The position numbers and the translations under genes were made by a program. From IMG/VR virus record IMGVR_UViG_3300046504_000020, positions 1 to 21,475 of that record: a stretch of DNA of 21,475 nucleotides; one strand, written 5' to 3'. Source of the DNA: a virus. Shown piece after piece: positions 3,901-21,354 of the stretch; position 1 is the stretch's first letter, and each line of letters starts with the position of its first letter. Below the pieces are notes generated by a model. That model had not been told where the DNA came from. It saw only the letters and a program-made list of their open reading frames with translations, and made no database searches.

Positions 3901-5624
3901 GGGGTGAACCAACGGATGAAAAGAAACGTAACGCTGCCAGGGCGGCAGGATGGCAACCCTACTCTCTTAAAATTGGCGATAATTATTTCTCATATGCCAA
4001 GATGCACCCAGCAATAGCATTTCCACTAGCCTTAGTTGCAGCCGTAAGAGATTCGCAGAAGAAGAAGTTATTGGATGATGGACAAGTTGAAACGGTTTTG
4101 GATGGGGTGGCGAAATGGGTAAATTTCTACGCCAGCATGTCTTACGTTAAAAATATTGGGGATGCGGTGTCGGGTGTTAATGGAGATTTAAGTGCTGGAA
4201 CCCGACAAATCTCTAACTACGCACAACAGCTCGTTCCTTACAGGGCACTCCTGGGTTGGGTAACAAGAATCGTTGATCCTTATCAGAGACAAGTCGATCC
4301 AAAGGGAAACATTCTTACCAAACAATTGCAATCTTTGATGACACAAGTCCCTGGACTTTCAGGAGCCGTACCTGCCAGAGTCGATGCAAAAGGAAACCCA
4401 ATAGAAAATCCCCATAGATGGATTAACGCTTTCTCTCCCGTAAGGATAACCACTGAAAATCCACAACTAATGAAAACCTACAACTTACTTGAAGCCAAGG
4501 CACAGACTACACGGCAAGAAACCGCAATTAAACAACAAGTTTTAGACACAGGTAAAGAGCAAACATATAACGGTAAGAAGTTTTATCCATCAAAGGAACT
4601 CGACACTGCTACGGGTGAGTATAAACCGGTCGTCAAATCTGTCAAGGTTCCCCAAACAACAAGTGATGTTTATGGTGGATTAGATAAAAAATATGAAACG
4701 TCTCCCGATGCACCACAAAACATTTTACAGACAATAGGAGTTTATGGTACTGGAATTCTTAAAGACCCTTCAGGAACCATCAACGCCATCAAGACGGGTC
4801 AACCGATCCGTAAAGTTACGGGAGACACCGTGGTGGTTGAAAGACTTAAAGGACTCTCCGCTCTTGACCAAGGAGACCAATCAACCCAAGTAGATCATAT
4901 TATTGCCGATTCATTAGGGGGAGATAACTCAGAATCTAATTTGGCCATTATTTCTACCCAAGACAACCAAGCCAAGGGTGTTGTAGATACCTACCTCTAC
5001 AATCTCTTAAAAGATGGCAAAATAACCAAAAAGGAGGCTCAGACAAGAGACCTAAATTGGAGAAACGAAATAACCAACCTCTCGTCTACAGATAAGACTA
5101 AAGTAAGTAATATTTTAAGTGCTACTCCACCCCCAGCAAAAGTAGTTAAAACAGATATTCTAAGTACGCTAGCAGGAAGAACCTACCAGCCCATCTATAA
5201 CAATGACACAGGTACTTATTCAGATATTCAAGTAAAAATGCCTCAACAACCTGTCTACACAGGTATGACTGAACTGGATAAGCAACTAAAGTCTAAATAC
5301 ACGACTGCTTTAACAACCGCCAAAACAAATATAGGCAAACTTTATCTTGATGGGCAAATCACGGCACAAGAGGCAAATGATGCCCTAACAACAATAAAAT
5401 TAACAACAGGGAAAGCCAAAAAGCCAGCTAAGATGGCCTACAAGAAACTTACCCTACCAAAACCCAAAAAACTAGCCAAATTTAAAATTAAAGGTGTTAA
5501 ATTAGCCAAGTATAAACCCGTAGGTAAATTAGCTAAATCAAAAGCACCTAAAAAACTAGCCAAAGCTAAATTTAAGAGTGTAAGACCATTAACTTTAAGT
5601 CAGGTTACGCCCAGAAGGGCTTAA
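939..5624 (+). CDS. Giant LPD38-type polyvalent virion protein with HNH-like motif and lysine-rich tail
   Basis: This 1561-residue protein probably belongs to the virion and enters the cell with the DNA. Residues 1-600 are Pro/Gln-rich and low in recognisable domains. From about 725 to 1040 the pattern matches the large polyvalent protein domain LPD38 family as I know it: SSMLSSPNTHINN near 730, QAEDEFFQTL near 845, FPFVRVPSNILK near 930, and AAGWQPYSLKIG near 1003. A hydrophobic segment at about 966-980 could cross a membrane. Near 1318 a VDHIIADSLGGDN motif followed by SNL and DNQAKG resembles an HNH nuclease core without the usual CxxC pairs. The last 75 residues are repeats rich in KLAK/KPKK-type blocks, histone-H1-like, and probably bind DNA. 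The family call is fairly firm; nuclease activity is inferred. Confidence 0.85.
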   Translation: MLNAYESAIQSAKKFLNIGQPAQSAPMPVVQSYLPHPSTPAAPIAPPKMASYSNILANYMNGVQKTFSSFMGNAGNAINNIPAVKSYTQQVQESKQTPFFNANNTPQQWIGKVGQDIQKRGLAEGFHDITYPITTSPYLRPITDMGTSAVRMANYKLGRPSPTVNYLLGQTDKQMANPNIKPIPDAIRKTLDNILKTATPDMKDVAKGFQGQQSAASKTLGGQNYPAIPTTYAPKNTAQKFGAFMNDFIGTGVAMGPGIAASTNEGLQGLGAVANASPTVARFSQFISDLSKTKIKLPISDIQDVMTGKASPEVVQKYTQATAGMNNDEIAALVRQAKVDGVSPKMNILDYAKDLFQRVKISLQDTGEPKMLPSGMPEPAPAYNPNEAGFFRFDPTTNPQIIDNPDAKLVGTLIQKMEGTQPLSMEEGNIITQLAGKYGVKIQEKINPNLDILRQLEGLLTKDQGIANRFPNQGGFIKPDEILKSVGLLKEKPPVKPVSVPQDIIPPEVKTVPTSVNPEASKLPLKTPTTQSQVSPNQIVPEVKPEVPLADSSPLYFNTDRLNVNTKAKDFVTQTIEEVKPQIEQVAGKKLSNKEAVDLANNSAGVLNRVVSKQETLAWEAKLLKARELLAKQAKDGKVTQEYIDNLIAVKTQGTDIARKLQSMSIGADPKEVTAKQAILEAVLRVTQNSDEVLSKAKGVDFNNYEQAASFYRQFVKPTASDWLEKVRYSSMLSSPNTHINNTSSNFQGTGIIAPIEKTISGNVDALLSAINPNRVRTQFAGEGVAYAKGYYSKLGDAWTNFTDTMSGKKISSAQEMYNLPLTEKGTFKRGVENLLSVPGKLLQAEDEFFQTLTEGGVKSSLKFRESKGVKVGGLEDKAYLEARKRLFNAAFGLKEEGYVLKALEFIPMKVAEARMNSNPVISTIAKYTFPFVRVPSNILKSSVEYGPLGVTTLPGASDKVGQLSKAILGTAIGLAAAVLVGEDRLTWGEPTDEKKRNAARAAGWQPYSLKIGDNYFSYAKMHPAIAFPLALVAAVRDSQKKKLLDDGQVETVLDGVAKWVNFYASMSYVKNIGDAVSGVNGDLSAGTRQISNYAQQLVPYRALLGWVTRIVDPYQRQVDPKGNILTKQLQSLMTQVPGLSGAVPARVDAKGNPIENPHRWINAFSPVRITTENPQLMKTYNLLEAKAQTTRQETAIKQQVLDTGKEQTYNGKKFYPSKELDTATGEYKPVVKSVKVPQTTSDVYGGLDKKYETSPDAPQNILQTIGVYGTGILKDPSGTINAIKTGQPIRKVTGDTVVVERLKGLSALDQGDQSTQVDHIIADSLGGDNSESNLAIISTQDNQAKGVVDTYLYNLLKDGKITKKEAQTRDLNWRNEITNLSSTDKTKVSNILSATPPPAKVVKTDILSTLAGRTYQPIYNNDTGTYSDIQVKMPQQPVYTGMTELDKQLKSKYTTALTTAKTNIGKLYLDGQITAQEANDALTTIKLTTGKAKKPAKMAYKKLTLPKPKKLAKFKIKGVKLAKYKPVGKLAKSKAPKKLAKAKFKSVRPLTLSQVTPRRA

Positions 5625-7262: not shown

Positions 7263-7335
7263 AACCAAATCAGCCCTGACTCCTGTTACAAAGTAGAGCT
7301 GACGTGGGAGAGAGTATTATACCACCAAAAACCCC

Positions 7336-7365
7336 TTGACACAATTAAGTGGGAAGGGGTATAAT
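7336..7365 (+). promoter_or_regulatory. Consensus sigma70 promoter with overlapping dyad
   Basis: TTGACA (7336-7341), 18-nt spacer, TATAAT (7360-7365); the next ATG is at 7371, 5 nt after the -10 box, so the mRNA should be leaderless. CCCCTT (7332-7337) and AAGGGG (7354-7359) form a dyad that overlaps the -35 box and abuts the -10 box, a plausible repressor site. This is among the strongest promoters in the window. Confidence 0.75.
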
Positions 7366-7370
7366 GGGTT

Positions 7371-7604
7371 ATGATTAGTAACTCTCCAATTCTACCACAA
7401 CAGGGCAATTCTCCGCAACTATTCTATCAACTTCAGAAAAATAACACCCTACATTTAATACAAGTTTCTCCTACTGGCGAAAAGAAATATATTCACTTTA
7501 TCCCCAATTTAAATATTCCAACAATTAAAACTCATCACAAAAAAGTCCTAGAAGCCAAAAGGGACTCTAAAGCCGTGCAAAACGGCACGTTATTCGGAAA
7601 CTAA
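7371..7604 (+). CDS. Hypothetical 77-residue protein from a leaderless promoter
   Basis: The protein begins MISNSPILPQQGNSPQLFYQ and contains a beta-strand-like middle (NTLHLIQVSPTGEKKYIHFI) and a basic C-terminal half (TIKTHHKKVLEAKRDSK). No family is recognised. It is the first gene behind a near-perfect promoter (7336-7365), which argues for strong and perhaps early expression, and no ribosome binding site precedes the ATG. A 118-nt gap follows. Confidence 0.6.
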   Translation: MISNSPILPQQGNSPQLFYQLQKNNTLHLIQVSPTGEKKYIHFIPNLNIPTIKTHHKKVLEAKRDSKAVQNGTLFGN

Positions 7605-9938: not shown

Positions 9939-10698
9939 ATTACAACTAATAGTTAAAGAAAGTGGATTAGAAACAACAAAATCAAAGTATATTCTTGATA
10001 AGTTTACGAATTATTTTGAGATTGCTTCTGACTGGGAGAAAAAGGCCAAAGAAATTATAGTTAAAAGTGCGGATGATAAGACGGAAATGCAGATGGCTAG
10101 GGTCGGCCGGTTGTTCTTAAGAGAGAAAAGAATAGCGATTGAAAAAGCTAGGGTTGAACTGAAAGAGCAAGCTTTAAGAGAAGGAAAAGCAATTGATGGT
10201 ATTGCCAATATATTAAAAGCTTTGATAGTTCCTATTGAAGAATATCTTGAAAAACAGGAAAGATTTGTCGAGATAAAAGAAGCTGAACTTGCTGAAAAGA
10301 AAAGGATTGAAGAAGAAGAAAGAATTGAAAAAGAGAGATTGGCTCAAGAAGAAGCAGATCGAAAGGAACAGGAAAGAATTAGACTTGAAAATATTAAATT
10401 GCAAAAGGAAGCAATAGAGAGAGAAAAAAAATTAGTTGAAGAACAGGAGAGGGCTAGGAAAGAAAAAGAATTGGCTGACGCTAAATTAAAGTCTGAACAA
10501 GAAGCTAATGAAAAAATACAATCTGATATTAGAGCTAAAGCTGAAGAAACAGCTAGATTAGAAAAAGAAAAGGCAGATAAAATAATTGCTGAAGAAAGAG
10601 CTAAAGCTGAAACCGAAAGATTAGAAAAAGAGAAAGCACAAAAATTATTAGATGAACAGATCGAATGCCCGTTTTGCCATAAAAAATTCAATATATGA
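9928..10698 (+). CDS. Long coiled-coil phage protein with C-terminal CxxC (DUF1351-like)
   Basis: ATG 9928 is chosen; it overlaps the preceding gene by 11 nt and gives 256 residues. An earlier in-frame start would only translate the antiphase end of that gene. Residues 1-110 are mixed helical (ESGLETTKSKYILDKFTNYF, MARVGRLFLREKRI), and residues 110-245 are an almost uninterrupted charged coiled coil rich in Glu, Lys and Ala. The end, CPFCHKKFNI, is one half of a zinc ribbon. The layout resembles DUF1351-type proteins next to phage recombinases. The A-rich, repetitive coding strand produces false antisense frames. Confidence 0.7.
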   Translation: MENKLQLIVKESGLETTKSKYILDKFTNYFEIASDWEKKAKEIIVKSADDKTEMQMARVGRLFLREKRIAIEKARVELKEQALREGKAIDGIANILKALIVPIEEYLEKQERFVEIKEAELAEKKRIEEEERIEKERLAQEEADRKEQERIRLENIKLQKEAIEREKKLVEEQERARKEKELADAKLKSEQEANEKIQSDIRAKAEETARLEKEKADKIIAEERAKAETERLEKEKAQKLLDEQIECPFCHKKFNI

Positions 10699-10850
10699 AA
10701 CCTATTAACGATACAAGAAAACCTCTACCTGCTGGCAAAAGATACTGTAGGTGTGGGGCTAAAATATCAGATCAGTTCATTGTTTGCTTTAAGTGCTATA
10801 ACGAAGATTTAAGAAAAACAACAAAGCATTTCAAAAAGAAAGAAACTTGA
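10695..10850 (+). CDS. 51-residue zinc-ribbon protein
   Basis: Overlaps the preceding stop by ATGA. The protein has CRCGAKISDQFIVCFKC: a CxC pair and a CxxC pair 12 residues apart, forming a likely treble-clef or zinc-ribbon fold, flanked by basic ends (NDTRKPLPAGKRY, LRKTTKHFKKKET). Such tiny basic zinc proteins are common in phages and usually bind nucleic acid or a host polymerase; the function here is unknown. Confidence 0.75.
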   Translation: MKPINDTRKPLPAGKRYCRCGAKISDQFIVCFKCYNEDLRKTTKHFKKKET

Positions 10851-10885
10851 CGAATATCAACCTTATCAGCCAGGAGTAAATTAAA

Positions 10886-11038
10886 ATGAAGAAAAAACTT
10901 AAATTATTGATACTCTACATTAAATATCACAAAGAGATAAACGAATTATATAATTTTTCTCTTAAGGGAAAAAATGGAGAGCAAGTGCCGGAAGATTGTG
11001 ATTGGGAAGACAGAACACGTTATTGGTATTGGAATTAA
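10886..11038 (+). CDS. Hypothetical 50-residue protein
   Basis: MKKKLKLLILYIKYHKEINE starts a basic amphipathic helix, followed by an acidic, Trp/Tyr-rich tail (EDCDWEDRTRYWYWN). AGGAG lies 8 nt before the ATG and supports the start. No family is recognised. It may sit at the membrane surface through the N-terminal helix, but no full transmembrane segment is present. Confidence 0.6.
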   Translation: MKKKLKLLILYIKYHKEINELYNFSLKGKNGEQVPEDCDWEDRTRYWYWN

Positions 11039-11040
11039 AC

Positions 11041-11175
11041 ATGATACAAATTAAAAAAACAAAAAGTGTAGACATGGAAGGAGACAAAGATGGTATTGGA
11101 ATTTTGATAGGCAACACAAATTTATGGGTTCCGGCAAGATTAGTTTTTCAAGTTAAAAGAGGATTAGAAACTTAA
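11041..11175 (+). CDS. Hypothetical 44-residue protein
   Basis: Starts two bases after the preceding stop. The short sequence alternates strands (IGILIGNTNLWVPARLVFQV), suggesting a small beta-hairpin protein. There are no Cys and no known motif. Tight spacing to the previous gene is the main support. Confidence 0.5.
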   Translation: MIQIKKTKSVDMEGDKDGIGILIGNTNLWVPARLVFQVKRGLET

Positions 11176-11232
11176 ATACAAAAGTTTTATAGGAAGCATC
11201 TTAAAAAATAATATTTAGATAAGGCTCTAAGC

Positions 11233-11338
11233 AGTAGGGGTTCTCGACAAATAAAAATTGGACACAGTACACGGGACATACCTACTACAATTTGCCCAGG
11301 CCAGGACAAGCATACCTTAAAAGGATTTTGTCCGGCCT
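11233..11338 (+). other. Structured intergenic element: possible pseudoknot plus hairpin
   Basis: This lies in the 175-nt gap before the transglycosylase gene. AGTAGG (11233-11238) can pair with CCTACT (11281-11286), and AAATTG (11255-11260) with CAATTT (11288-11293); the order gives an H-type pseudoknot. Next, AGGCC-A-GGACAA (11298-11309) pairs with TTGTCC-GGCCT (11328-11338), an 11-bp stem with one bulge and a smaller CCTT/AAGG hairpin on top. No T-run follows, so it is not a terminator. It could be a leader RNA or a protein-binding DNA site. Confidence 0.4.
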
Positions 11339-11350
11339 TATGTAAATGTT

Positions 11351-11881
11351 ATGAATACAAAAACTAAAATACTAGCCGGAGTAGCCATTCTAATACTCGC
11401 TGTGGTCTTACTTACCGTAATTCTACGGGGTATATCCTCGTGGTATGACAAACATGAGGTTAAATTCAACCAAGTCGTGCAGATTGAGGTACAAGCCCCC
11501 ATAACCATTAAGAGTCGAGAAGTAGAAGTGAGAGAGATCGTCAAAGTGATCAATTCAATTCCTAATCCGGTAGATTTAAAAACCGATACCGAAAAGTACA
11601 TATATCAAAAATTTGGAATAGAAGATTACAAAGTAGCCATCGCCATAGCAAGAAGCGAGTCCGGTTTAAGAGAAGGTGCTATCAATATAAACACTAACAA
11701 TACGATTGACGTAGGCGTATTTCAAATAAATTCTATTCATTTTAAGCAAGCCGGTTGCTCACTAAAAGAAGTTGCTACCATGCAAGGTAATGTAGATTGT
11801 GCTTATTCACTATTCAAGTCAAGCGGGTGGACGATCTGGACGACTGTATTAAATGGGGCGTTTGTTAGTAAACTACAATGA
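11351..11881 (+). CDS. Membrane-anchored lytic transglycosylase-like protein
   Basis: A 176-residue protein with an uncleaved-looking N-terminal helix (residues 7-26), a spacer, then a lysozyme-fold SLT-like domain. The likely catalytic Glu103 is in ARSESGLREGA, followed by the DVGVFQIN motif (120-127), matching the GLxQIN signature, and a C-terminal GWTIWTTVLNGAF. It would cut glycan strands outside the membrane, during DNA entry, lysis, or as a cell-wall remodelling factor. It lies 5 kb from the CHAP endolysin, in the accessory region. A structured element precedes it. Its stop overlaps the next start (ATGA). Confidence 0.82.
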   Translation: MNTKTKILAGVAILILAVVLLTVILRGISSWYDKHEVKFNQVVQIEVQAPITIKSREVEVREIVKVINSIPNPVDLKTDTEKYIYQKFGIEDYKVAIAIARSESGLREGAININTNNTIDVGVFQINSIHFKQAGCSLKEVATMQGNVDCAYSLFKSSGWTIWTTVLNGAFVSKLQ

Positions 11882-12264
11882 GAAAAATATCAAGGAAAGG
11901 AATTATAAATAAACTAGATAAACTTATAAGTGTGCAAATTAGAGCAAGAGGAATGTGTGAGCGGTGTGGTAAGAAAGAAAACTTGCAATGTGCACATATT
12001 TATTCGAGAAGTTATAAACATTTACGCTGGGAGCCGGAGAATCTAATTTGTCTATGTTCCGGCTGTCATTTCTGGTGGCACCAAAACCCTGCGGAAGCAA
12101 TAATTTGGGTAATGGATATAAGGGATATTAAAAAGTTAAAAAAGATACGCCAAAACACTACACCAATTAAGGACTGGCAATTACAAGCAATGTTAGACGA
12201 AATGAAAGAAGAAGATGATTTTATAAAACACGATTTAGATATGAGTAATGAAGGGACACAATGA
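11878..12264 (+). CDS. HNH/NinG-like zinc nuclease
   Basis: A 128-residue protein with a beta-beta-alpha-metal pattern: CERC (27-30), a histidine in CAHIYSR (His40), EPENLICLC (Asn55), then CSGCHFWWHQNP (60-70). The spacing resembles lambda NinG-type recombination proteins and zinc-bearing HNH endonucleases. The C-terminal third is charged and helical. Possible roles are processing of replication or recombination intermediates, or a homing-type activity. It is coupled on both sides by ATGA overlaps. The nuclease fold is likely; the substrate is unknown. Confidence 0.78.
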   Translation: MRKISRKGIINKLDKLISVQIRARGMCERCGKKENLQCAHIYSRSYKHLRWEPENLICLCSGCHFWWHQNPAEAIIWVMDIRDIKKLKKIRQNTTPIKDWQLQAMLDEMKEEDDFIKHDLDMSNEGTQ

Positions 12265-12422
12265 AAAAGAAAACCAAGGTATTAAAAGCTTTTCCACAAA
12301 CACCATTTTATTCAAAAGTGTTCAAGGGTAAGTGGTATGTTGCAGTTGATGAAAACCATCATAGTGTTTACTTTTGGGACGGAAAAGCTAAATATTTTAA
12401 TTTTTTATATCACTTTACTTAA
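12261..12422 (+). CDS. Hypothetical 53-residue protein
   Basis: Overlaps the preceding stop (ATGA). Basic start (MKKKTKVLKAFPQTPFYSKV), then strand-like aromatic segments (GKWYVAVDENHHSVYFWDGK) and a hydrophobic end. A small beta-rich fold is likely. No family is recognised. The next ATG follows the stop directly. Confidence 0.55.
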   Translation: MKKKTKVLKAFPQTPFYSKVFKGKWYVAVDENHHSVYFWDGKAKYFNFLYHFT

Positions 12423-12524
12423 ATGAAAAATTTACTACTCAAGCTCTGGATATACTTTTACGATAGACAACTAGAGCAAGGTTTGTTTTTCGCTAGGCTA
12501 GATAGAAAGATACGAAATACATAA
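12423..12524 (+). CDS. 33-residue microprotein with LFFARLDRKI motif, copy 1
   Basis: Starts directly after the preceding stop; its own stop overlaps the next ATG (TAATG). The C-terminal half, GLFFARLDRKI, recurs in the 36-residue gene at 13349, and both share an N-terminal Trp/Tyr amphipathic helix (KLWIYFYD versus RIWNYFYS). Two independent copies of so short a sequence strongly support a real, selected gene. The hydrophobic-basic pattern suggests membrane-surface or protein binding. Confidence 0.65.
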   Translation: MKNLLLKLWIYFYDRQLEQGLFFARLDRKIRNT

Positions 12525-12667
12525 TGAAAATATATAAACTAACTTATCATAATTTAATTTGTAGGATATTCGGGCACAAAAAGGTATATTCAACGTCGCA
12601 TGGCTGGCTGGCATATTCTAATAGATGCGGTCGCTGTAAAAGAATAATGTATGAAAAACTACGATAG
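12524..12667 (+). CDS. DUF1660-like zinc microprotein
   Basis: A 47-residue protein with CRIFGHKK near residues 13-20 and RCGRCKR near 34-40. The CxxxGHk...CxxCg layout is that of the small prophage proteins grouped as DUF1660, whose function is unknown. It starts by TAATG overlap and ends 17 nt inside the next gene. The Cys/His set (Cys13, His18, Cys35, Cys38) should bind one zinc. Confidence 0.65.
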   Translation: MKIYKLTYHNLICRIFGHKKVYSTSHGWLAYSNRCGRCKRIMYEKLR

Positions 12668-12740
12668 TGAGATGTTACTAATAGCGGTACTTTTAATTTT
12701 AGCTATGCTAGGTATATTAGTGATAACAAACGGAAGATAG
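12651..12740 (+). CDS. 29-residue single-helix membrane microprotein
   Basis: MKNYDSEMLLIAVLLILAML opens a protein with a short polar start, one 17-19-residue hydrophobic helix and a short NGR tail. It overlaps the DUF1660-like gene by 17 nt. A gene of the same size and layout lies at the matching place in the second cassette copy (14123). No function can be assigned. Confidence 0.5.
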   Translation: MKNYDSEMLLIAVLLILAMLGILVITNGR

Positions 12741-12746
12741 TAAATT

Positions 12747-12779
12747 ATGCACAACAAATCACGGAAGGATAAAAAATGA
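12747..12779 (+). CDS. 10-residue SRKDKK mini-ORF, truncated copy or leader
   Basis: The ORF MHNKSRKDKK ends in an ATGA overlap with the next start. The 19-bp string AATCACGGAAGGATAAAAA (12757-12775) recurs at 14219-14237 within a longer 36-residue gene, so this is probably a shortened duplicate that now serves as a translational leader. Confidence 0.4.
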   Translation: MHNKSRKDKK

Positions 12780-12949
12780 AAAAGATATTACGAATTGATG
12801 ACGAGGATAATAAATGGAGTCTTGGTGAAAGATTAAAAAAATTGTTAGAGGAAATGGATGTATTTGAAGGGAATGAAGATTGGAGATACGCAAAGAGAGG
12901 GGTATTGATTATTGAGTTTATTGAGGAACCGTACATAAAAGAAACTTAA
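12776..12949 (+). CDS. Hypothetical 57-residue acidic protein
   Basis: MKKILRIDDEDNKWSLGERL starts a charged protein that is helical in the middle (RLKKLLEEMDVFEG) and has a strand-like end (RGVLIIEFIEEPYIKET). Acidic small phage proteins of this kind are often inhibitors of host enzymes, but nothing here identifies a target. It ends two bases before the GTAAGG that starts the structured RNA region. Confidence 0.55.
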   Translation: MKKILRIDDEDNKWSLGERLKKLLEEMDVFEGNEDWRYAKRGVLIIEFIEEPYIKET

Positions 12950-12962
12950 TGTAAGGTTTTTG

Positions 12963-13066
12963 AGGGCTGGTTACCTTGCGAATGTCATAACAACTGAGTT
13001 GCGAAAACTGTAACAAGGTCTAGGCGAGTCGGGGGAACTAAATTCCTTACTTCGCAACCAGCACCT
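12963..13066 (+). ncRNA. Candidate structured RNA with a three-way junction
   Basis: A 144-nt gap folds by hand into a compact nested structure. P1: AGG+GCTGGTT (12963-12972) with AACCAGC-a-CCT (13056-13066). P2: ACCTTG (12973-12978) with CAAGGT (13014-13019), capped by CAAC-TGA-GTTG (12991-13001). P3: GCGAGT (13024-13029) with AC-t-TCGC (13049-13055), capped by GGAA-CTAAA-TTCC (13034-13046). Only four bases (CTAG) lie unpaired at the junction. GTAAGG (12951-12956) can instead pair with CCTTAC (13045-13050), giving a switch-like alternative. I recognise no known riboswitch or ribozyme class. An SD-led mini-ORF follows. Confidence 0.55.
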
Positions 13067-13093
13067 GAGAAACTTTATTTTAGGAGGGAAAGT

Positions 13094-13129
13094 ATGAATA
13101 AAGAATATATTGAATCCTTAGTAAGATAG
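13094..13129 (+). CDS. 11-residue SD-led leader peptide
   Basis: MNKEYIESLVR is preceded by TAGGAGGGAAAGT, one of the best SD sequences in the window, and ends 7 nt before the ATG at 13137. A strong SD on an 11-codon ORF, placed between a structured RNA and a gene without its own SD, points to a leader peptide or coupling device. Confidence 0.45.
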   Translation: MNKEYIESLVR

Positions 13130-13136
13130 TAAAACT

Positions 13137-13337
13137 ATGAAAAACAAAAGTACAATTTTCACAAGAAGTAAGACAGTAAAAACTTATAAGCATACTGAAT
13201 ACTTATGGGGACTATTTGCTGGTGAGGAAGTTCAACGTGTTGATAGTTATGGGTATGATTTGATAATTAAAGCCGATAATGAACCTAAACATATCTATTT
13301 AATAGGTGCCAACGGAAGACCTAAAAAACTTAAGTAA
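13137..13337 (+). CDS. Hypothetical 66-residue basic protein
   Basis: A basic, strand-rich protein (STIFTRSKTVKTYKHTEYLW, then YGYDLIIKADNEPKHIYLIG, ending RPKKLK). No Cys, membrane helix or known motif. It has no SD of its own and follows an 11-codon leader with a strong one. AGTAAGATAGT occurs just before this start (13120-13130) and again before the next gene (13333-13343). Confidence 0.6.
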   Translation: MKNKSTIFTRSKTVKTYKHTEYLWGLFAGEEVQRVDSYGYDLIIKADNEPKHIYLIGANGRPKKLK

Positions 13338-13348
13338 GATAGTCTAAT

Positions 13349-13459
13349 ATGATAAATATAATCTATAGAATCTGGAATTACTTTTATTCAGATGTAATGG
13401 AGTTTGGGTTATTTTTTGCCAGACTTGATAGGAAGATAAACAAAGCTAAATATGGTTAG
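13349..13459 (+). CDS. 36-residue microprotein with LFFARLDRKI motif, copy 2
   Basis: Paralogue of the 33-residue gene at 12423: both carry a Trp/Tyr N-terminal amphipathic helix and the identical GLFFARLDRKI block. It starts 11 nt after the preceding stop, behind AGTAAGATAGTCTAAT, and is followed by the pentapeptide-repeat gene. The duplication with conserved protein but drifted DNA supports real expression. Confidence 0.65.
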   Translation: MINIIYRIWNYFYSDVMEFGLFFARLDRKINKAKYG

Positions 13460-13473
13460 GAGGTGAATAAATT

Positions 13474-14052
13474 ATGAAAACAATAAATTTGACAGATGAA
13501 CAATTTGAAGAAGTACAGGCAGTTTTGAAAAAAGCTGTTAAAGAGGAAAAGACAGAAGGTGTAAAGACTTACAGCAACTTTGAAGGTGTAAAGATCTACA
13601 GCAGATTTGATAGTAAAAAGGTAATTTACACTTCTACTAAAACTACAATTAGAGAAGCTGTTATAGAGGCAGTAGAGAATTATGCCGACTTGAGTGGTGC
13701 CGACTTGAGTGATGCCAACTTGAGTGGTGCCGACTTGAGTGATGCCAACTTGATTGGTGCCGACTTGAGTGATGCCGACTTGAGTGGTGCCGACTTGAGT
13801 GATGCCAACTTGAGTGGTGCCGACTTGAGTGATGCCGACTTGAGTGGTGCCGACTTGAGTGATGCCAACTTGAGTGATGCCAACTTGAGTGGTGCCGACT
13901 TGAGTGATGCCAACTTGAGTGGTGCCGACTTGAGTGGTGCCGACTTGAGTGATGCCAACTTGAGTGGTGCCAAAACCGAATACTGCAAGGTTAATTTTTC
14001 AAGTGACGAAAAGAAACAGGCAGAACAATTCATTAAAGGATTGGATAAGTAA
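13474..14052 (+). CDS. Pentapeptide-repeat protein
   Basis: A 192-residue protein. Residues 1-70 are a charged domain ([18 protein letters not shown], then [18 protein letters not shown]). Residues 71-165 are 19 tandem pentapeptides of the form A(D/N)LS(G/D) with a single ANLIG, predicted to form a right-handed quadrilateral beta-helix of nearly five coils. A helical tail follows ([17 protein letters not shown]). The Asp-rich surface resembles DNA-mimicking members such as MfpA/Qnr, which bind gyrase; anti-restriction or gyrase protection is possible but unproven. The repeats use Ser rather than the bulkier outward residues usual in many members. A strong SD (AGGAGGTGA) sets the start. Confidence 0.88.
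13684..13968 (+). repeat. 15-bp tandem repeat array, 19 units
   Basis: Nineteen 15-bp units, GCC(G/A)ACTTGAGTG(G/A)T, encode the pentapeptide repeats. Apart from GAC/AAC and GGT/GAT switches the only difference is one ATT for AGT. Identical synonymous codons throughout mean the array expanded or was homogenised recently. Confidence 0.95.
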
Positions 14053-14057
14053 TTACA

Positions 14058-14081
14058 CTGCTTATCTTACGAGATAGGCAG
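14058..14081 (+). terminator. Hairpin after the pentapeptide gene, weak terminator candidate
   Basis: CTGCTTATC (14058-14066) pairs with GATAGGCAG (14073-14081): 9 bp with one G-T wobble and a 6-nt loop, starting 5 nt after the stop. The following AAATAAAT is not a T-run, so termination would be weak; transcript end protection is an alternative. Confidence 0.35.
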
Positions 14082-14122
14082 AAATAAATACTTAGGAAGA
14101 TAACAGAAAGACTAAATAGAAT

Positions 14123-14206
14123 ATGATTGATTATAATTACTTAGCAACTTTAATTGAAGTGTGGATAATTTCAATGTTGGTGGCATGGCTCCTTTTAAGA
14201 AAATGA
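14123..14206 (+). CDS. 27-residue single-helix membrane microprotein
   Basis: A short polar start (MIDYNY), one hydrophobic helix with Trp residues (LATLIEVWIISMLVAWLLL) and an RK end. Its stop overlaps the next ATG (ATGA). It occupies the same position as the 29-residue membrane microprotein at 12651 in the duplicated cassette, although sequence identity is low. Confidence 0.5.
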   Translation: MIDYNYLATLIEVWIISMLVAWLLLRK

Positions 14207-14313
14207 ACACACACAAGGAATCACGGAAGGATAAAAAGAAAAAAGAGAAGAAGATAGAGATATGGAAGTTGTATCCTGGCCCATTAAGAAAGTGGATGAA
14301 AGGACTTAAATGA
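14203..14313 (+). CDS. 36-residue basic SRKDKK microprotein
   Basis: MNTHKESRKDKKKKEKK followed by IEIWKLYPGPLRKWMKGLK. Very lysine-rich at the start, then an amphipathic Trp segment. It shares the SRKDKK block and 19 bp of DNA with the 10-residue ORF at 12747. Overlaps on both sides (ATGA) place it in an operon with the membrane microprotein. Function unknown; a nucleic-acid or membrane-surface binding peptide is possible. Confidence 0.55.
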   Translation: MNTHKESRKDKKKKEKKIEIWKLYPGPLRKWMKGLK

Positions 14314-14510
14314 CTACATCATCTAACAAGGATAAGGGGGTAAAGAAACCAACAATAATAGGAATAAAACAATTAAAGATTAAACCCTTAATTGATTTAC
14401 CTACTGTAAATAAAATAGACAACTTTGATGATTTATTTTTTCAGGTAAACCAATTTGGAGAAATAATAATTGATTATAAAAATGTTCATTACAACATCAG
14501 AAAATTATGA
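14310..14510 (+). CDS. Hypothetical 66-residue protein
   Basis: Begins MTTSSNKDKGVKKPT, then a hydrophobic-basic stretch (IIGIKQLKIKPLIDLPTV) and strands (QFGEIIIDYKNVHYNIRKL). No family is recognised. It overlaps its neighbours by ATGA at both ends. Its first 14 bases are repeated exactly at the next ORF (14507). Confidence 0.55.
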   Translation: MTTSSNKDKGVKKPTIIGIKQLKIKPLIDLPTVNKIDNFDDLFFQVNQFGEIIIDYKNVHYNIRKL

Positions 14511-14542
14511 CTACATCATCCAAAACAAATAAAGATTTATGA
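14507..14542 (+). CDS. 11-residue coupling ORF duplicating the previous gene's start
   Basis: MTTSSKTNKDL repeats the ATGACTACATCATC start of the gene at 14310 and ends in an ATGA overlap with the gene at 14539. It looks like a duplicated 5' end kept as a translational relay. Confidence 0.4.
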   Translation: MTTSSKTNKDL

Positions 14543-14841
14543 AAGAAACTGAATGTACTCTTTGTCTTGATAAAAAATGTATTGAGGTTAAGGATAAGCG
14601 TGGAATCACCAGAGTAATCATGTCCAAAAGTTACCCTACTGATATGTCCGTACCTGAAACCTCAAAGATTCCTATAAGTGGGTGTGTGTTCAGGCAGGCA
14701 CAGGAGGTTATGGATAAGCCCCGCACAAGAGGTGTAGGATATGGCGAACAGCCAGACGATAGCAGTGTGCAAATCACTGACGGGGCTCAAACAGATACTG
14801 AAGTAGAAAGAAAACAAAGCACTGATTTATTAGGTAGTTAA
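14539..14841 (+). CDS. Hypothetical 100-residue protein with N-terminal cysteine motif
   Basis: The N-terminus (CTLCLDKKCIEV) has a CxxC plus a third Cys, with Cys49 in SGCVFRQA; together they could bind zinc. The remainder is polar and probably flexible (GYGEQPDDSSVQITDGAQTD). DNA around 14690-14800 is more GC-rich than its neighbours. The last 19 bases, including the stop, are repeated at 14905-14923, the end of the next ORF. Function unknown. Confidence 0.5.
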   Translation: MKETECTLCLDKKCIEVKDKRGITRVIMSKSYPTDMSVPETSKIPISGCVFRQAQEVMDKPRTRGVGYGEQPDDSSVQITDGAQTDTEVERKQSTDLLGS

Positions 14842-14923
14842 GAATATGATTATTCTGATATATCAGTTTAAACAATATATAACAGGTGATATACCGCAAA
14901 ATATTGATTTATTAGGTAGTTAA
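14823..14923 (+). repeat. 19-bp direct repeat at two ORF ends
   Basis: TGATTTATTAGGTAGTTAA occurs at 14823-14841 and 14905-14923, each time forming the C-terminal DLLGS and stop of an ORF. The copies are 82 bp apart, consistent with a short local duplication. Confidence 0.85.
14846..14923 (+). CDS. 25-residue ORF from a local duplication
   Basis: MIILIYQFKQYITGDIPQ followed by NIDLLGS. Its end duplicates the end of the preceding gene. It has no SD and no convincing independent signal, so it may be a duplication remnant and not a working gene. Confidence 0.3.
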   Translation: MIILIYQFKQYITGDIPQNIDLLGS

Positions 14924-14931
14924 AGAACTAT

Positions 14932-15168
14932 ATGAAATCAAAAACTAAAGAAAAAGTTTGCTGTAGGGCTCATAGTATTACATTGTGTGGATTAGTAGGA
15001 GTATCGAATCATCTTTATTACTGTTGTGATAAATGCCCTACTAAACCTAAACCAAAGAACAAGATAGAAAAGATAAGACCACCAGAGGTTGAACTTACTA
15101 CAATGGATATATATTTTAAGTTGGGTGCAAAACTCAACGAAATAATTGATAACTTAAATGCCAAATAA
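14932..15168 (+). CDS. Cysteine-rich 78-residue protein
   Basis: The N-terminal half carries a dense Cys/His set (VCCRAHS, TLCG, then YYCCDKCPTK), sufficient for one or two zinc sites. It is followed by a Lys/Pro linker (KPKPKNKIEKIRPPE) and a helix (DIYFKLGAKLNEIIDNLNAK). A small zinc-binding DNA or protein adaptor is likely, but the family is not recognised. Its last 11 nt overlap the next gene. Confidence 0.6.
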   Translation: MKSKTKEKVCCRAHSITLCGLVGVSNHLYYCCDKCPTKPKPKNKIEKIRPPEVELTTMDIYFKLGAKLNEIIDNLNAK

Positions 15169-15484
15169 TACAAAGTTAAAAGAAGAATTTTATAAGAAGT
15201 TTGTAGGATTGCCTCCAATGTACCACACAGAGTCGCATCAAAATATTCAAGGGTATTATTCCGACAAAATGATGAATATAAAAGAACTTTGGAACTGGAT
15301 AGACAATGCCTTAACAGAAGCAAGGAAAGAAGAACAAGAGAGAATAATAAAAGAGATAGAAAATTATCCTTGGCTGATGGTTATAAAGGGAGATGTTTTT
15401 TCACTTTCAAGTATGGATAGGGATACTAAAGTGCGGAAACAGATGCGAAAGGAAGTTTTGGAACTCTTAACCAAAAAGAAATGA
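15158..15484 (+). CDS. Hypothetical 108-residue helical protein
   Basis: A charged, mostly helical protein with aromatic patches (YKKFVGLPPMYHTESHQNIQ, IKELWNWIDNALTEARKEEQ) and a basic end (EVLELLTKKK). There is no catalytic motif. It overlaps the next ORF through ATGA. It resembles many uncharacterised early phage proteins only in composition. Confidence 0.6.
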   Translation: MPNNTKLKEEFYKKFVGLPPMYHTESHQNIQGYYSDKMMNIKELWNWIDNALTEARKEEQERIIKEIENYPWLMVIKGDVFSLSSMDRDTKVRKQMRKEVLELLTKKK

Positions 15485-15642
15485 AAATAGAATTTGATTG
15501 GTATGGACTGGCTATGCTAGTTAGGGGAATAAATAAAGGATTTGCCGAGTTGTTTCATTGGTGTATGCAACATGGTGACAAGAAAAAGAACTGGAAACGG
15601 ATAGAAAAAGAATTGGGACTAAAGCAATACAAAAGTAAATGA
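15481..15642 (+). CDS. Hypothetical 53-residue basic protein
   Basis: MKIEFDWYGLAMLVRGINKG starts a helix ending in the aromatic-Cys patch FAELFHWCMQH, then a basic helix (KKKNWKRIEKELGLKQYKSK). It overlaps the preceding gene by ATGA and closes the accessory operon; the terminase promoter starts 13 nt later. Confidence 0.55.
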   Translation: MKIEFDWYGLAMLVRGINKGFAELFHWCMQHGDKKKNWKRIEKELGLKQYKSK

Positions 15643-16072: not shown

Positions 16073-16513
16073 ATGCTAACCAAATATCAAAAGTATAAAG
16101 ATTACTATAAAAAGTATTACCGAGAACATAAAGACTTTGTGAAAAGTATTAGGGATCGGTGGACGGATAAGAAAAGATTTGGTGGTTTAGTTGAAATGAT
16201 TTTGAAAAGGGACGGCTACAGGTGTCAGCGATGTGGAATGACCAATGAAGACCACCTAGTAAGATGGCACAAGAGATTGACTATAAACCACATCAATGGT
16301 AAGGGTAGATATTCGAACACTCCAGACAACAATCCAAACAATCTTGTTACTTTGTGTCTTTCTTGTCATGCTTCGGTGGATAATTTGAGGGTGTGGAAGA
16401 ATAAATCGTACAGTGAACGTTTAATTTGGACTAGGAACGGAAGAATTGCTAGCGGAAAAAGATTATCCCGGAATTTATTGACATTAAATGAAAAAACATG
16501 CAAGTTCGCTTAA
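16073..16513 (+). CDS. HNH endonuclease between the terminase genes
   Basis: A 146-residue protein: a basic/Tyr-rich N-terminus (YKDYYKKYYREHKDF), then an HNH zinc finger with CQRC (51-54), LTINHINGKG (His73), NNPNNLVTLC (Asn90) and CLSCH (95-99). In HK97-like and related phages an HNH protein next to the terminase is needed for packaging and terminase cleavage, and this position suggests the same role. A homing endonuclease is the alternative, although it is a separate gene and does not interrupt one. It overlaps the large terminase by 16 nt. Confidence 0.87.
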   Translation: MLTKYQKYKDYYKKYYREHKDFVKSIRDRWTDKKRFGGLVEMILKRDGYRCQRCGMTNEDHLVRWHKRLTINHINGKGRYSNTPDNNPNNLVTLCLSCHASVDNLRVWKNKSYSERLIWTRNGRIASGKRLSRNLLTLNEKTCKFA

Positions 16514-17814
16514 GCCCATGGCAACTAGAAGTAGCAAACGACAATCACAGGTTCAGGATAGTATGTGCGGGAAGAAGATCGGGCAAATCAGTCCTGGCCA
16601 GGCTTATCTTGTTGAAGTGGGCAATCTCAAATGTAGGTACTTATTATTTAGTATCACCGACCTATCGACAGGCGAAATCTATTCATTGGGCGGAGATGAG
16701 GAAGGAGATCCCGAGGGAGTGGGTAGCAAAAACTAATGAAACAGAATTATCTTTCACACTTAAGAATGGAAGTGTCATTGCGTTACATGGAGCTGAAAAT
16801 CCGGATGCACTTAGAGGTGTTAAACTTAGGGGTTTGGTTATTGACGAAATTGCATCTATTAGGAATTGGGAATGGCTCTGGGGCGAGGTACTTAGACCTA
16901 CGCTCACTGATTATGAGGCACCAGTTGTATTCATTAGCACACCCAAGGGTTACAACCATTTTTACGAATTATACGAGCAAGGACAAAATAACGATAGTCA
17001 GTACAAATCATGGAAATTCACCAGTTATGATAATCCCTATATCCCGAAAGAAGAAATAGACAAAGCAAAAAATGAACTTACTGAAGACACATTTCAACAA
17101 GAGTATATGGCAGATTTTAGGAAGTACACCGGGCTCGTGTATAAGGACTTTAGTCGTGATACCAATGTCATTGATCCGTTTACCATACCCGACTCTTGGA
17201 GCGTATACAGAGGAATCGACTTCGGCTCAACTAATCCGACAGCATGTTTATGGATTGCAGTCGATGGGGATGACAACTGGTTTATCTATGACGAACATTA
17301 TGAATCTAAATCTGATATTAGTTATCATGCTGGTGTTGTTAACTCTAAGTCTAATCGTACTATTACGGCAACTTATGGTGATCCGTCAGGTGCTCAATGG
17401 ATTACAGAGTTCGCACAAAGAGGCATTTATATCACTCCAGCCACAAAAGAAACAAGCACAGCATTCAACACATGGGTCAGATATAAAATCGAAAAGGTTG
17501 CAGAGAAACTCAAAATCATTCCAGGGCATACCGTTGCCTATGGATTACACACAGGCAAAGAAAGTCTGGCTGGCTCACCATCGCTCTTCATCTTCAACAC
17601 TTGTACACACACCATTGGAGAGTTTGAAACCTACCGTTGGAAAGAAAAGAGTGTCACACAAGCGCAAGACCTAAACGAACCAGATGTTCCCGAGAAGGCA
17701 AATGATCACGCTATGGATGCACTAAGTTACTTTGCTTGTAGTTACAAGAAACAACCTGATATAAATGCTTACATACCAAATGACATCGGTACACGAGACT
17801 GGTCACTATCATAA
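16498..17814 (+). CDS. terL: Terminase large subunit
   Basis: The packaging motor ATPase-nuclease, 438 residues. ATPase: Walker A AGRRSGKS (24-31), adenine-contacting Q9 in SPWQLE, Walker B LVIDE (113-117) and coupling motif STPKG (147-151). RNase H-like nuclease: GIDFGSTNPTACLWI with Asp241, YGDPSG with Asp295, and NDHAMDALSYF with Asp407, a complete acidic triad. The length is standard. It overlaps the HNH gene by 16 nt and the next gene by TAATG. The two long frames inside it are artefacts. Confidence 0.96.
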   Translation: MQVRLSPWQLEVANDNHRFRIVCAGRRSGKSVLARLILLKWAISNVGTYYLVSPTYRQAKSIHWAEMRKEIPREWVAKTNETELSFTLKNGSVIALHGAENPDALRGVKLRGLVIDEIASIRNWEWLWGEVLRPTLTDYEAPVVFISTPKGYNHFYELYEQGQNNDSQYKSWKFTSYDNPYIPKEEIDKAKNELTEDTFQQEYMADFRKYTGLVYKDFSRDTNVIDPFTIPDSWSVYRGIDFGSTNPTACLWIAVDGDDNWFIYDEHYESKSDISYHAGVVNSKSNRTITATYGDPSGAQWITEFAQRGIYITPATKETSTAFNTWVRYKIEKVAEKLKIIPGHTVAYGLHTGKESLAGSPSLFIFNTCTHTIGEFETYRWKEKSVTQAQDLNEPDVPEKANDHAMDALSYFACSYKKQPDINAYIPNDIGTRDWSLS

Positions 17815-18324: not shown

Positions 18325-20424
18325 ATGGTTGATACGATAAAAGACACACAGATAAACGGTACTCCGGAAGAACAAGAAACCTTTAGTGAGGTTTATCGTC
18401 ACTATTCCATGTCTACACAAGACTTAAGACGCAGAATGGTTGATTGGGACAGCAAAGACGCACTATTCAGGAACTATATTAACGAATCCTCATGGCCTTA
18501 TAGATCAATGGTTACAGATCCAAGAGTCTTTACAGCTATTTATGAGAAGACTGCTCGTATATTAGCTAATAAACCTGAAGGACGTTTAATTCCAAGAGAG
18601 GGTGGAGATGCACTTAAGGCCAAAATCAACGGTGAACTACTTTCTTTCCAGTGGGACGACAATGTAAGGGCTGAGGAGAACCCCATGTTAGCTAAGTGGG
18701 CTATAATGGATCAGAATGCACGTAAGTATGGTGCTTCATTTGCTTTCGTAGGTTGGAAGTGGCAAAGACAAGTCGAAAGAATAGGCCAACCATTTGGTAA
18801 GGATAGTAAAGAGCAAGGCAAAGCTGTAACATTCTTTGACGGACCTAACTTCAGACCTTGGAATAATAGAGATGTCCTTCATAATCCTTCTTATTCAACA
18901 ATCAAGACCTGGATTCAACTTAGAGACTACTTAACGCTTAATGATCTTGAAGATGTCAACGATTCAGCACGCTCTAAGCCCATTTACAAGAACTTGGACA
19001 TCTTAAGAGACAAACTAAGCAACATTTCATCTAAAGGACTAGATACAAGGTCGCAAAACTACTGGATGAAGAACAAAACCATTAAAGGTTTACAAGACTA
19101 CCTGGGACTTGACCCTTCATTCAAAGTTATAGAGATCATTACTGAGTATAGACCCGACAGGTGGATTACATTCGCTCCTAAACACGGCCTTATCTTAAGA
19201 GACATTCCTAATCCTTACAAACATCAACAGATTCCTGTAGTTTTACTTAAATACTACCCAATAGATGAGGATATATACGGACTCTCGGAGATAGAGCCTG
19301 TCGAGAAACTACAAAAAGCGATAAACGCTTTAGTCTGTCAGTATCTCGATGCGATCAACATGAGTCTGTATGCTCCTCTTAAAATCAATCCCGTTAATGT
19401 TCAGATGCACACCTTAGAGTTCGGACCCGGTAAGAAGTGGTTGATGAATAATCCCGCTACAGATGTTATAACTCACCAAGGTGCACCTCAAGGAATACAA
19501 GAGTTTGCTTCTACTTATAGATTCTTAGTCGGGGCTATGCAGGAAGCCTTAGGAGAGACGAGTGCGGCTGCTTCAAGTTTGGATCCTGGTGCAAGTAATA
19601 AGACCGCAACCGAGATTAAAGACTTAACCGGTAGTAGAAGCGCAAGGGATAACTTCAATTTAATATTCTTGGGTGAAGCCTTAAAGAAACAAATGATGTT
19701 CTGGCTGAAGATGAATCAACAGTTCCTATTCGGTAGCAATCAAAAGGATAAACAGAAGTTGATTCAAATCATAGGCAAAGACGCTATCAAGTTCTTCCAA
19801 TCTGAGGGGTTGGATGCTAATGGGCTAGATCAGAAAGCCATTGATACTTTGACAGATCCGACAATGGTCGGGACAAGTGTTAACCCTGAATCCTTAGCAA
19901 CACCACTATTCCCCGTTAAAGTCGGAGGAGATGTTATTCCTAAACTAACAGTAGAGGGTCAGGGACAAGTGGGACATCTTGTAATAGAACCGGATGACCT
20001 AGCGGGTACTTATGATTACATACCCGATGTTGGTTCAATGAGTCAAATGGCTCCTGAAGATAAAATAACTGCAATGAGTAACGCTTTAGCTATGGCTACG
20101 GGAGTAGATCCTAAGACGGGTCAGCCGTCAGGATTGGCTGCAATGATGGCCAAAGAAGGTAAGAAGGTCAAAGCAACTGAGTTATGGACTGACTTAATGG
20201 AAGAGACAGGATTTAAAGATGCAGATCAATACATAGAGAGTATTCCACAACCACAAGCACAACCTAGTATAGCGGATGCTCTAGGTGGTATAATGGGTCA
20301 ACAAAATGTCCAAGGTCAAACTCAACCAGGAGGAATCCCTGGCGCAGGTCAAGGCGGAGCAGGTCCAGGAATGCCTGGCCAGCAAGGGATGGCAGGAATG
20401 CCTCCTCCCGTTCCTACAGGCTAA
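18325..20424 (+). CDS. Portal protein
   Basis: A 699-residue dodecameric vertex protein through which DNA is packaged. The clip/stem/wing-type signals include an N-terminal YRHYSMSTQDLRRRM region, WAIMDQNARKYGASFAFVGW, YPIDEDIYGLSEIEPVEKLQ (about 311-330), the long helical crown LQKAINALVCQYLDAIN, and GETSAAASSLDPGASNKTAT (about 410-429), the portal tunnel-loop neighbourhood. It ends in a Gln/Gly/Pro/Met-rich tail. It is encoded just after the terminase, as usual. There is no SD; a terminator ends 6 nt before the ATG. The length and tail suit the large portal proteins of short-tailed phages. Confidence 0.88.
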   Translation: MVDTIKDTQINGTPEEQETFSEVYRHYSMSTQDLRRRMVDWDSKDALFRNYINESSWPYRSMVTDPRVFTAIYEKTARILANKPEGRLIPREGGDALKAKINGELLSFQWDDNVRAEENPMLAKWAIMDQNARKYGASFAFVGWKWQRQVERIGQPFGKDSKEQGKAVTFFDGPNFRPWNNRDVLHNPSYSTIKTWIQLRDYLTLNDLEDVNDSARSKPIYKNLDILRDKLSNISSKGLDTRSQNYWMKNKTIKGLQDYLGLDPSFKVIEIITEYRPDRWITFAPKHGLILRDIPNPYKHQQIPVVLLKYYPIDEDIYGLSEIEPVEKLQKAINALVCQYLDAINMSLYAPLKINPVNVQMHTLEFGPGKKWLMNNPATDVITHQGAPQGIQEFASTYRFLVGAMQEALGETSAAASSLDPGASNKTATEIKDLTGSRSARDNFNLIFLGEALKKQMMFWLKMNQQFLFGSNQKDKQKLIQIIGKDAIKFFQSEGLDANGLDQKAIDTLTDPTMVGTSVNPESLATPLFPVKVGGDVIPKLTVEGQGQVGHLVIEPDDLAGTYDYIPDVGSMSQMAPEDKITAMSNALAMATGVDPKTGQPSGLAAMMAKEGKKVKATELWTDLMEETGFKDADQYIESIPQPQAQPSIADALGGIMGQQNVQGQTQPGGIPGAGQGGAGPGMPGQQGMAGMPPPVPTG
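20286..20294 (+). promoter_or_regulatory. Extended -10 motif inside the portal gene
   Basis: TGGTATAAT, followed by GGGTCAACAAA and the ATG at 20306. GGTATAATGGGT is identical to the -10 region of the strong promoter at 7360. No -35 is visible. It would give a leader of about 5 nt for the overlapping gene. It may also be chance, as it encodes Gly-Gly-Ile-Met of the portal. Confidence 0.35.
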
Positions 20425-20883: not shown

Positions 20884-21015
20884 ATGGCTAAAAAAGAAGT
20901 TAAACTTATAAAGTGCGTTGTCCTTGTTGCTAATGTAAATTGGAATAAAGGAGATGTTGTTGAAGTTTTAAGCGATGATATAAGAATAGGCTATTCTTTG
21001 CAAGAGGTTAAGTAG
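20884..21015 (+). CDS. Hypothetical 43-residue protein
   Basis: MAKKEVKLIKCVVLVANVNW then NKGDVVEVLSDDIRIGYSLQEVK: a small all-beta, SH3-like pattern (the NKGDVVEV turn resembles KOW/SH3-type small head proteins). The SD AGAGGTGA lies 6 nt before the start. Its stop codon overlaps the -35 box of the next promoter. Confidence 0.6.
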   Translation: MAKKEVKLIKCVVLVANVNWNKGDVVEVLSDDIRIGYSLQEVK

Positions 21016-21041
21016 ACAATACTTGACTTATGCCTTATAAT
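21013..21041 (+). promoter_or_regulatory. Sigma70 promoter before the 21118 gene
   Basis: TAGACA (21013-21018), exact 17-nt spacer, TATAAT (21036-21041). Predicted start is near 21048. TTTACAA (21045-21051) and TTGTAAA (21064-21070) can pair early in the leader. An intrinsic terminator lies between this promoter and the gene. Confidence 0.65.
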
Positions 21042-21075
21042 GTTTTTACAAGGTTTTAACGCTTTGTAAAGCAAG

Positions 21076-21109
21076 AAACCGCTACGATTTTAGATCTGGC
21101 GGTTTTTTT
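21076..21109 (+). terminator. Intrinsic terminator between promoter and gene
   Basis: AAACCGC (21076-21082) pairs with GCGGTTT (21099-21105), followed by a continuous T-run (21103-21109). GAT/ATC can extend the upper stem. The next ATG (21118) is 8 nt after the T-run. The design is the same as before the portal. Confidence 0.8.
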
Positions 21110-21117
21110 GTTGCAAA

Positions 21118-21354
21118 ATGAAAGAAGAAGTTAAGGAAGAACCAAAAGAAGAGGTTAAACCTAAGGAGGAAGAACTCATCACTTTAGGTCCGCCTGTAAC
21201 TTGTATTAAAGGAGAACACTCTTTTCAGGTAATAGGTATAGAGATGGGAATGAGGAAAGCGCAGTGTACTAAGTGTCCGATAGGTTATTACTTGGGACCG
21301 AGTGATAATTTGAAAGATGGGCACGTTTACTTTAACGAGAAACTTGTGATTTGA
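21118..21354 (+). CDS. Small zinc-binding protein in the head module
   Basis: A 78-residue protein with a Glu/Lys-rich start (MKEEVKEEPKEEVKPKEEEL), then a Cys/His set: VTCIKGEHSF, AQCTKCPIGYYLGP and DGHVYFN. The order C-x4-H...CxxC...GH fits a compact zinc-binding fold often seen in short phage proteins near head genes. The first half is probably disordered. It lies behind a promoter and terminator and has no SD. A scaffold-associated or regulatory role is possible. Confidence 0.65.
   Translation: MKEEVKEEPKEEVKPKEEELITLGPPVTCIKGEHSFQVIGIEMGMRKAQCTKCPIGYYLGPSDNLKDGHVYFNEKLVI

Follow-up and report, generated by a model that had tools for sequence, protein, structure and literature searches.

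The intercistronic gap that extends from the UAA stop codon at positions 12947–12949 to the Shine–Dalgarno sequence at 13083 of the phage genome analysed here is a genuinely structured RNA. The gap is closed by a long stem, P1, which is rarely matched in shuffled sequences, and stems built on the same plan occur in related phages. The structured RNA matches no known class, and no sequence homologue was found in the sets searched. A possible reading, which we favour tentatively, is that this cis-acting intercistronic RNA directs the processing or the stability of a polycistronic phage transcript.

The window comprises an entire viral record of 21,475 bases, whose gene content is that of a tailed phage, with genes for an internal virion protein (939–5624), the large terminase (TerL, 16498–17814), the portal (18325–20424) and an endolysin, as well as a long run of tiny ORFs (10695–15640) within which the gap lies. 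The nearest named phages are remote (35% identity in TerL); the relatives of the window are IMG/VR contigs, with TerL identities of up to 87%, and a further relative is a contig from the bin of a Micrarchaeota MAG. The contig of the closest relative, L041 (87% identity in TerL), ends short of the structured-RNA region. Its TerL gene (L041 470–2204) is interrupted by a stop codon and an inserted HNH ORF (about L041 1190–1590), an insertion that is missing from the window copy.

A long stem closes the gap between two cistrons

P1 is formed by a 5′ arm at 12951–12972 (12951–12961 and 12963–12972, separated by a G mismatch) and a 3′ arm at 13056–13078 (with a bulged A at 13063 and a mismatched G at 13067), both on the plus strand. 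Its 21 bp close approximately 80 nucleotides with a pairing probability of about 1 (0.96–1.0 over most of the stem), and the helix can be extended to 25 bp by pairing of the UAA stop codon with residues 13080–13082. In a prefix folding series, a plus-strand hairpin joining 12951–12957 to 12973–12979 is expected during transcription and is lost once the 3′ arm has been made; this transient pairing would represent an ordinary folding path.

The fold of 12951–13078 has a free energy of −45.3 kcal/mol, compared with −29.0 ± 3.5 kcal/mol for shuffled sequences, none of which was as low in 3,000 trials; over 12951–13129, the z-score was −3.7 (0 of 200 shuffles). The score of the stop-anchored stem was matched by 3 of 5,000 shuffles. 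When the core (12973–13055) was randomized with P1 kept, 61 of 400 sequences folded equally well, so that the statistical signal is carried by the stem. A scan of both strands of the 21-kb window places the gap among a handful of local folds with z-scores below −4.5. A functionless chance fold in an intergenic spacer is extremely unlikely. In its favour, the scan yields several folds with z-scores near −4 to −5, and no homologue was found, but the results of the 3,000 and 5,000 shuffles, the presence of a spacer of approximately 130 nucleotides in a genome whose genes are tiny and so compactly arranged that they nearly overlap, and the enrichment of like-planned stems in relatives all argue against this explanation.

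The upstream cistron, a tiny ORF of 57 amino acids (12776–12949, plus strand) preceded by a Shine–Dalgarno-like GGAAGGA, ends with its UAA stop codon at the base of the stem. Downstream, the Shine–Dalgarno sequence AGGAGG (13083–13088, plus strand) lies outside P1, directly after its 3′ arm, and is a strong one, serving an 11-codon ORF (MNKEYIESLVR, 13094–13129, plus strand), confirming both features as described in an earlier reading of the sequence without database searches (the sequence-only reading). The next ORF, of 66 amino acids (13137–13337, plus strand) and without a family match, has no Shine–Dalgarno sequence of its own, a lack common to several more of the run's tiny genes, and starts 7 nucleotides past the stop of the 11-codon ORF. 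Because of this spacing and the missing Shine–Dalgarno sequence at 13137, AGGAGG and the mini-ORF probably open a translationally coupled block. MNKEYIESLVR, which the sequence-only reading had taken for a leader peptide, shows no run of repeated codons; a simpler view is that it is the Shine–Dalgarno-bearing first cistron of that block. The leader peptide of an attenuator precedes or overlaps the competing hairpins; the 11-codon ORF begins 16 nucleotides after the end of the structure at 13078.

The pentapeptide-repeat gene that had been placed downstream of the RNA is present, at 13474, but its proposed link to the RNA is unsupported, as the relatives of the gene in L056 and L057 have no such RNA upstream. 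The gene region (13459–14093) shares 77% nucleotide identity with both contigs and its flanks are not shared; the gene is a mobile module. Paralogous tiny proteins (..GLFFARLDRKI..) are encoded on either side of the RNA, at 12423–12524 and 13349–13459, which suggests a duplication within the run of tiny genes.

No family in Rfam 15 reached its gathering threshold anywhere in the window, and a local search to an E value of 10 returned only sub-threshold matches to SpR14 (20.2 of the 50 bits required) and SIB (15.7 of 56 bits), bearing out the earlier statement that the RNA matches no known class. Nucleotide homologues of the RNA were absent from the phage and plasmid sets, searches of viral contigs with exact and gapped DNA patterns gave 31 matches at a chance-like level, and a search for close relatives of the two ORFs flanking the RNA found none. 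Single-sequence covariance models of both folds of the RNA, run against 49 related records (823 kb), recovered only the window itself. ARAGORN detected no tRNA or tmRNA in the window. The TTGCGAA..TTCGCAACCA pairing in the gap resembles an acceptor stem; a tRNA-like identity was rejected, the sole prediction under relaxed ARAGORN settings being a poor artefact with an intron, on the opposite strand.

The core and its alternative folds

The core can adopt two folds on the plus strand. In fold A (12977–13056), which has the minimum free energy, helix P2 (12977–12982/13051–13056) encloses adjacent hairpins at 12994–13032 and 13033–13047, whereas in fold B (12973–13055) a helix of 12973–12978 with 13014–13019 and a hairpin at 13024–13055 are both flush with P1, producing a three-way junction with zero linkers. 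Fold A, at −45.4 kcal/mol, accounts for approximately 75% of the ensemble and fold B, at −44.1 kcal/mol, for approximately 23%, a split computed without coaxial stacking, which would favour fold B. The three-way junction of the sequence-only reading thus exists, but as a suboptimal state.

The motifs on which that reading based its competing pairings are present to within one base: GTAAGG at 12951–12956, TTGCGAA at 12976–12982 and 12999–13005, and TTCGCAA at 13051–13057, with CCTTAC located at 13045–13050. Neither of the proposed alternatives is a serious competitor, as pairing GTAAGG with CCTTAC costs approximately 16 kcal/mol and pairing the second TTGCGAA copy with TTCGCAA approximately 12 kcal/mol. 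An H-type pseudoknot in which ACCTTG/CAAGGT crosses GTTGCGAA/TTCGCAAC was also considered and is unlikely: a fold containing just the second helix has approximately −31.7 kcal/mol, and the first cannot repay the penalty.

Neither the stability nor the bistability of the core carries a statistical signal. At least 20% of the ensemble occupied a different core fold in 38% of core shuffles, the corresponding share of the ensemble for the natural sequence being 28%, and in both folds A and B P1 is unchanged and the Shine–Dalgarno sequence remains outside it. The description of the RNA as switch-like is unsupported because such bistability is common among core shuffles and both folds keep the stem, with the Shine–Dalgarno sequence outside. 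That of an attenuator is likewise unsupported because no intrinsic terminator (a short GC-rich hairpin with a U tract) was found near 12951–13090 and the short ORF lies downstream of the structure. The compact core may mainly cap the stem.

A riboswitch-like regulatory RNA that binds a ligand or protein through its two core folds is accordingly improbable, in our estimate. Such an RNA would find a basis in the gap of 1.3 kcal/mol between the folds, one of them a zero-linker junction, and in the competing hairpin on the folding pathway (12951–12957/12973–12979). Against it stand the ordinary behaviour of the core among its shuffles, the outer stem and Shine–Dalgarno context common to both folds, the missing terminator, and the lack of an Rfam match above threshold or of a sequence homologue in the phage, plasmid and viral sets searched. 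The RNA is like the riboswitches and attenuators among the cis-regulatory families of Rfam in being a structured RNA upstream of genes with alternative pairings, but differs from them in that it matches no Rfam family, its ORF is downstream, its core is no better than shuffled, and no expression platform was found: the alternative folds alter neither a terminator nor the Shine–Dalgarno sequence.

Stop-anchored stems in related phages

A fold scan of the related records revealed further long intercistronic stems that run from a stop codon to a ribosome-binding site (RBS) or start codon and are unrelated in sequence. Their common plan consists of a stop codon, a long stem, a compact core and an RBS. 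Such stem-closed elements are located at L004 7497–7642, L003 4256–4381, L031 1635–1743 (stem at 1636), L024 315–416, L005 679–776 and L103 9881–9994, as well as at L104 9255, L094 2019 (reverse strand), L124 10514, L110 4706 and L052 461. In L103, L094, L031 and L104, the stem abuts the Shine–Dalgarno sequence or start codon, as it does in the window.

Among 325 stop codons of the related records whose downstream gap measures at least 75 nucleotides, a subset chosen after the result over all stops had been seen (18 versus 11, non-significant), 11 strong stop-anchored stems (score of at least 40) were observed versus 2.5 expected, a number reached in none of 200 shuffled sets. Stop-anchored stems are thereby enriched four- to fivefold over shuffles, and only at stops with a real gap, as the 741 stops without one showed no excess (4 versus 5.6). 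Of 14 strong cases, 9 have a helix that takes in the stop codon, compared with 74 of 234 in shuffles. The first test applied, a bulk comparison of the two ends of each gap for complementarity, gave no enrichment, and neither did 87 gaps of unrelated contigs (11 versus 8.3), a weak control owing to their small number and different GC content.

An inner motif shared by L104 and L096 (TATGGGGA..TCCCGAACGT) was picked out by eye, and blastn and nhmmer gave no significant similarity for it. Three successive small genes in L019 (3250–3860) are surrounded by alternating arms that can pair with one another and are accompanied by RBS sequences. The window itself contains a second stem-closed strong fold (11208–11353, z-score about −4.5), directly before the start of a lysozyme-like gene at 11351.

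The element in L103 also bears on whether the arms could be a DNA-level or mobile remnant, that is, inverted repeats at a hot spot of recombination or homing endonucleases, with the RNA fold incidental. The homology between L103 and L009 breaks inside the element, an HNH gene replacing its left part, and L104 carries elsewhere an isolated copy of the right arm of an element and of the tail of the flanking gene. The arms of different elements have no common sequence, which is unlike a single mobile family, and none of 22 HNH genes is framed by complementary arms; we consider this origin very unlikely. L009 (1–354) and L103 (9881–10010) belong to contigs that are 99.98% alike over 5.3 kb, with the HNH gene abutting the right arm in L009 and the full element in L103; a 336-nucleotide segment with a small ORF is present in only one of the two.

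Possible roles of the stem

The stems of the related phages probably shape the cutting or translation of a shared messenger. In the window, the overall reading would accommodate a processing, a stability or a coupling stem. Under the processing or stability reading, the selected part would be the long stem that extends from the upstream stop codon to just before the Shine–Dalgarno sequence of the next block. Its helix of about two turns, with a G–G mismatch and a bulge, would resemble known RNase III substrates, and it might either be cut or block exonucleases, so that the upstream and downstream cistrons would have different mRNA fates.

Phage T7 has 10 RNase III sites, six of them in intergenic regions that also hold a promoter (PMC9135205), and such sites have no strong consensus, the stem structure being decisive (PMC8708148). 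P1, with its 21 bp, or 25 when the pairs of the stop codon are counted, supplies what an RNase III site calls for, namely an intercistronic duplex of roughly two turns. RNase III is the obvious candidate enzyme because a duplex suffices without a consensus and the T7 sites are intergenic. The RNA is like T7 sites of the R1.1 type in lying between cistrons of a polycistronic phage mRNA, in the mismatch and bulge of its stem and in being free of a consensus. The T7 sites are small hairpins, whereas here the putative cleavage would involve a branched core of approximately 80 nucleotides closed by 21–25 bp that start at the stop codon. This difference in size counts against processing, as do the lack of a homologue of the exact element and the chance that the stop-to-Shine–Dalgarno placement merely reflects the packing of a structure into the gap.

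Cuts at P1 could also release the core as a small, stable, trans-acting RNA. RNase III excises precursors in which a compact core is closed by a long duplex, an architecture seen here, and the window holds other candidates for short RNA genes (20997–21118). With neither a promoter nor a terminator of its own found, and no conservation detected, an excised RNA of this kind is quite improbable.

Alternatively, the stem could act as a coupling bridge that places the stop codon beside the next Shine–Dalgarno sequence and allows re-initiation across the insert of approximately 130 nucleotides, an unlikely role but one with specific points in its favour. The helix begins within the UAA and reaches the base preceding GGAGGG, the stems of L103, L094, L031 and L104 abut a Shine–Dalgarno sequence or start in the same way, and a strong Shine–Dalgarno sequence with a tiny ORF opens the downstream block. 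A terminating ribosome, given its established footprint, would nevertheless cover and open the lower stem, the Shine–Dalgarno sequence is strong enough for initiation alone, and the abutment may be a packing effect. The ribosome-shunt leaders of eukaryotic viruses, for example cauliflower mosaic virus, have a short ORF that terminates where a long stem begins, and ribosomes take up translation again immediately past that stem. The RNA shares with them the short ORF ending at the stem base and would share the restart beyond it, but those leaders belong to a eukaryotic scanning system, whereas here a Shine–Dalgarno sequence follows the stem. That the stem-closed RNAs of this phage lineage are generally translational bridges, a bacterial counterpart of ribosome shunting in which ribosomes pass an insert free to carry varied RNA cargo, is a speculation to which we give little credence.

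The interest of the processing or stability element lies mainly in the recurring plan of its class, the single element being of modest importance. If the class holds, many cistron boundaries in these uncultivated phages would be marked by stop-to-RBS stems independently of sequence, providing a concrete design rule for such boundaries. The stems would then amount to post-transcriptional control on a phage-wide scale, a layer invisible to homology searches and Rfam, because the plan is shared and the sequence is not.

Two further regions of the window have promoter-like sequences in or beside folded RNA. At 7307–7388, a consensus-like promoter (TTGACA..TATAAT) lies inside a strongly folded region (z-score about −5.7). 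At 20997–21118, two hairpins, one of them terminator-like, lie within approximately 70 nucleotides downstream of a promoter-like TTGACT..TATAAT, marking a candidate small RNA; a 28-nucleotide block in this region (ACAAGGTTTTAACGCTTTGTAAAGCAAG) is identical in L041, and the surrounding spacer differs.
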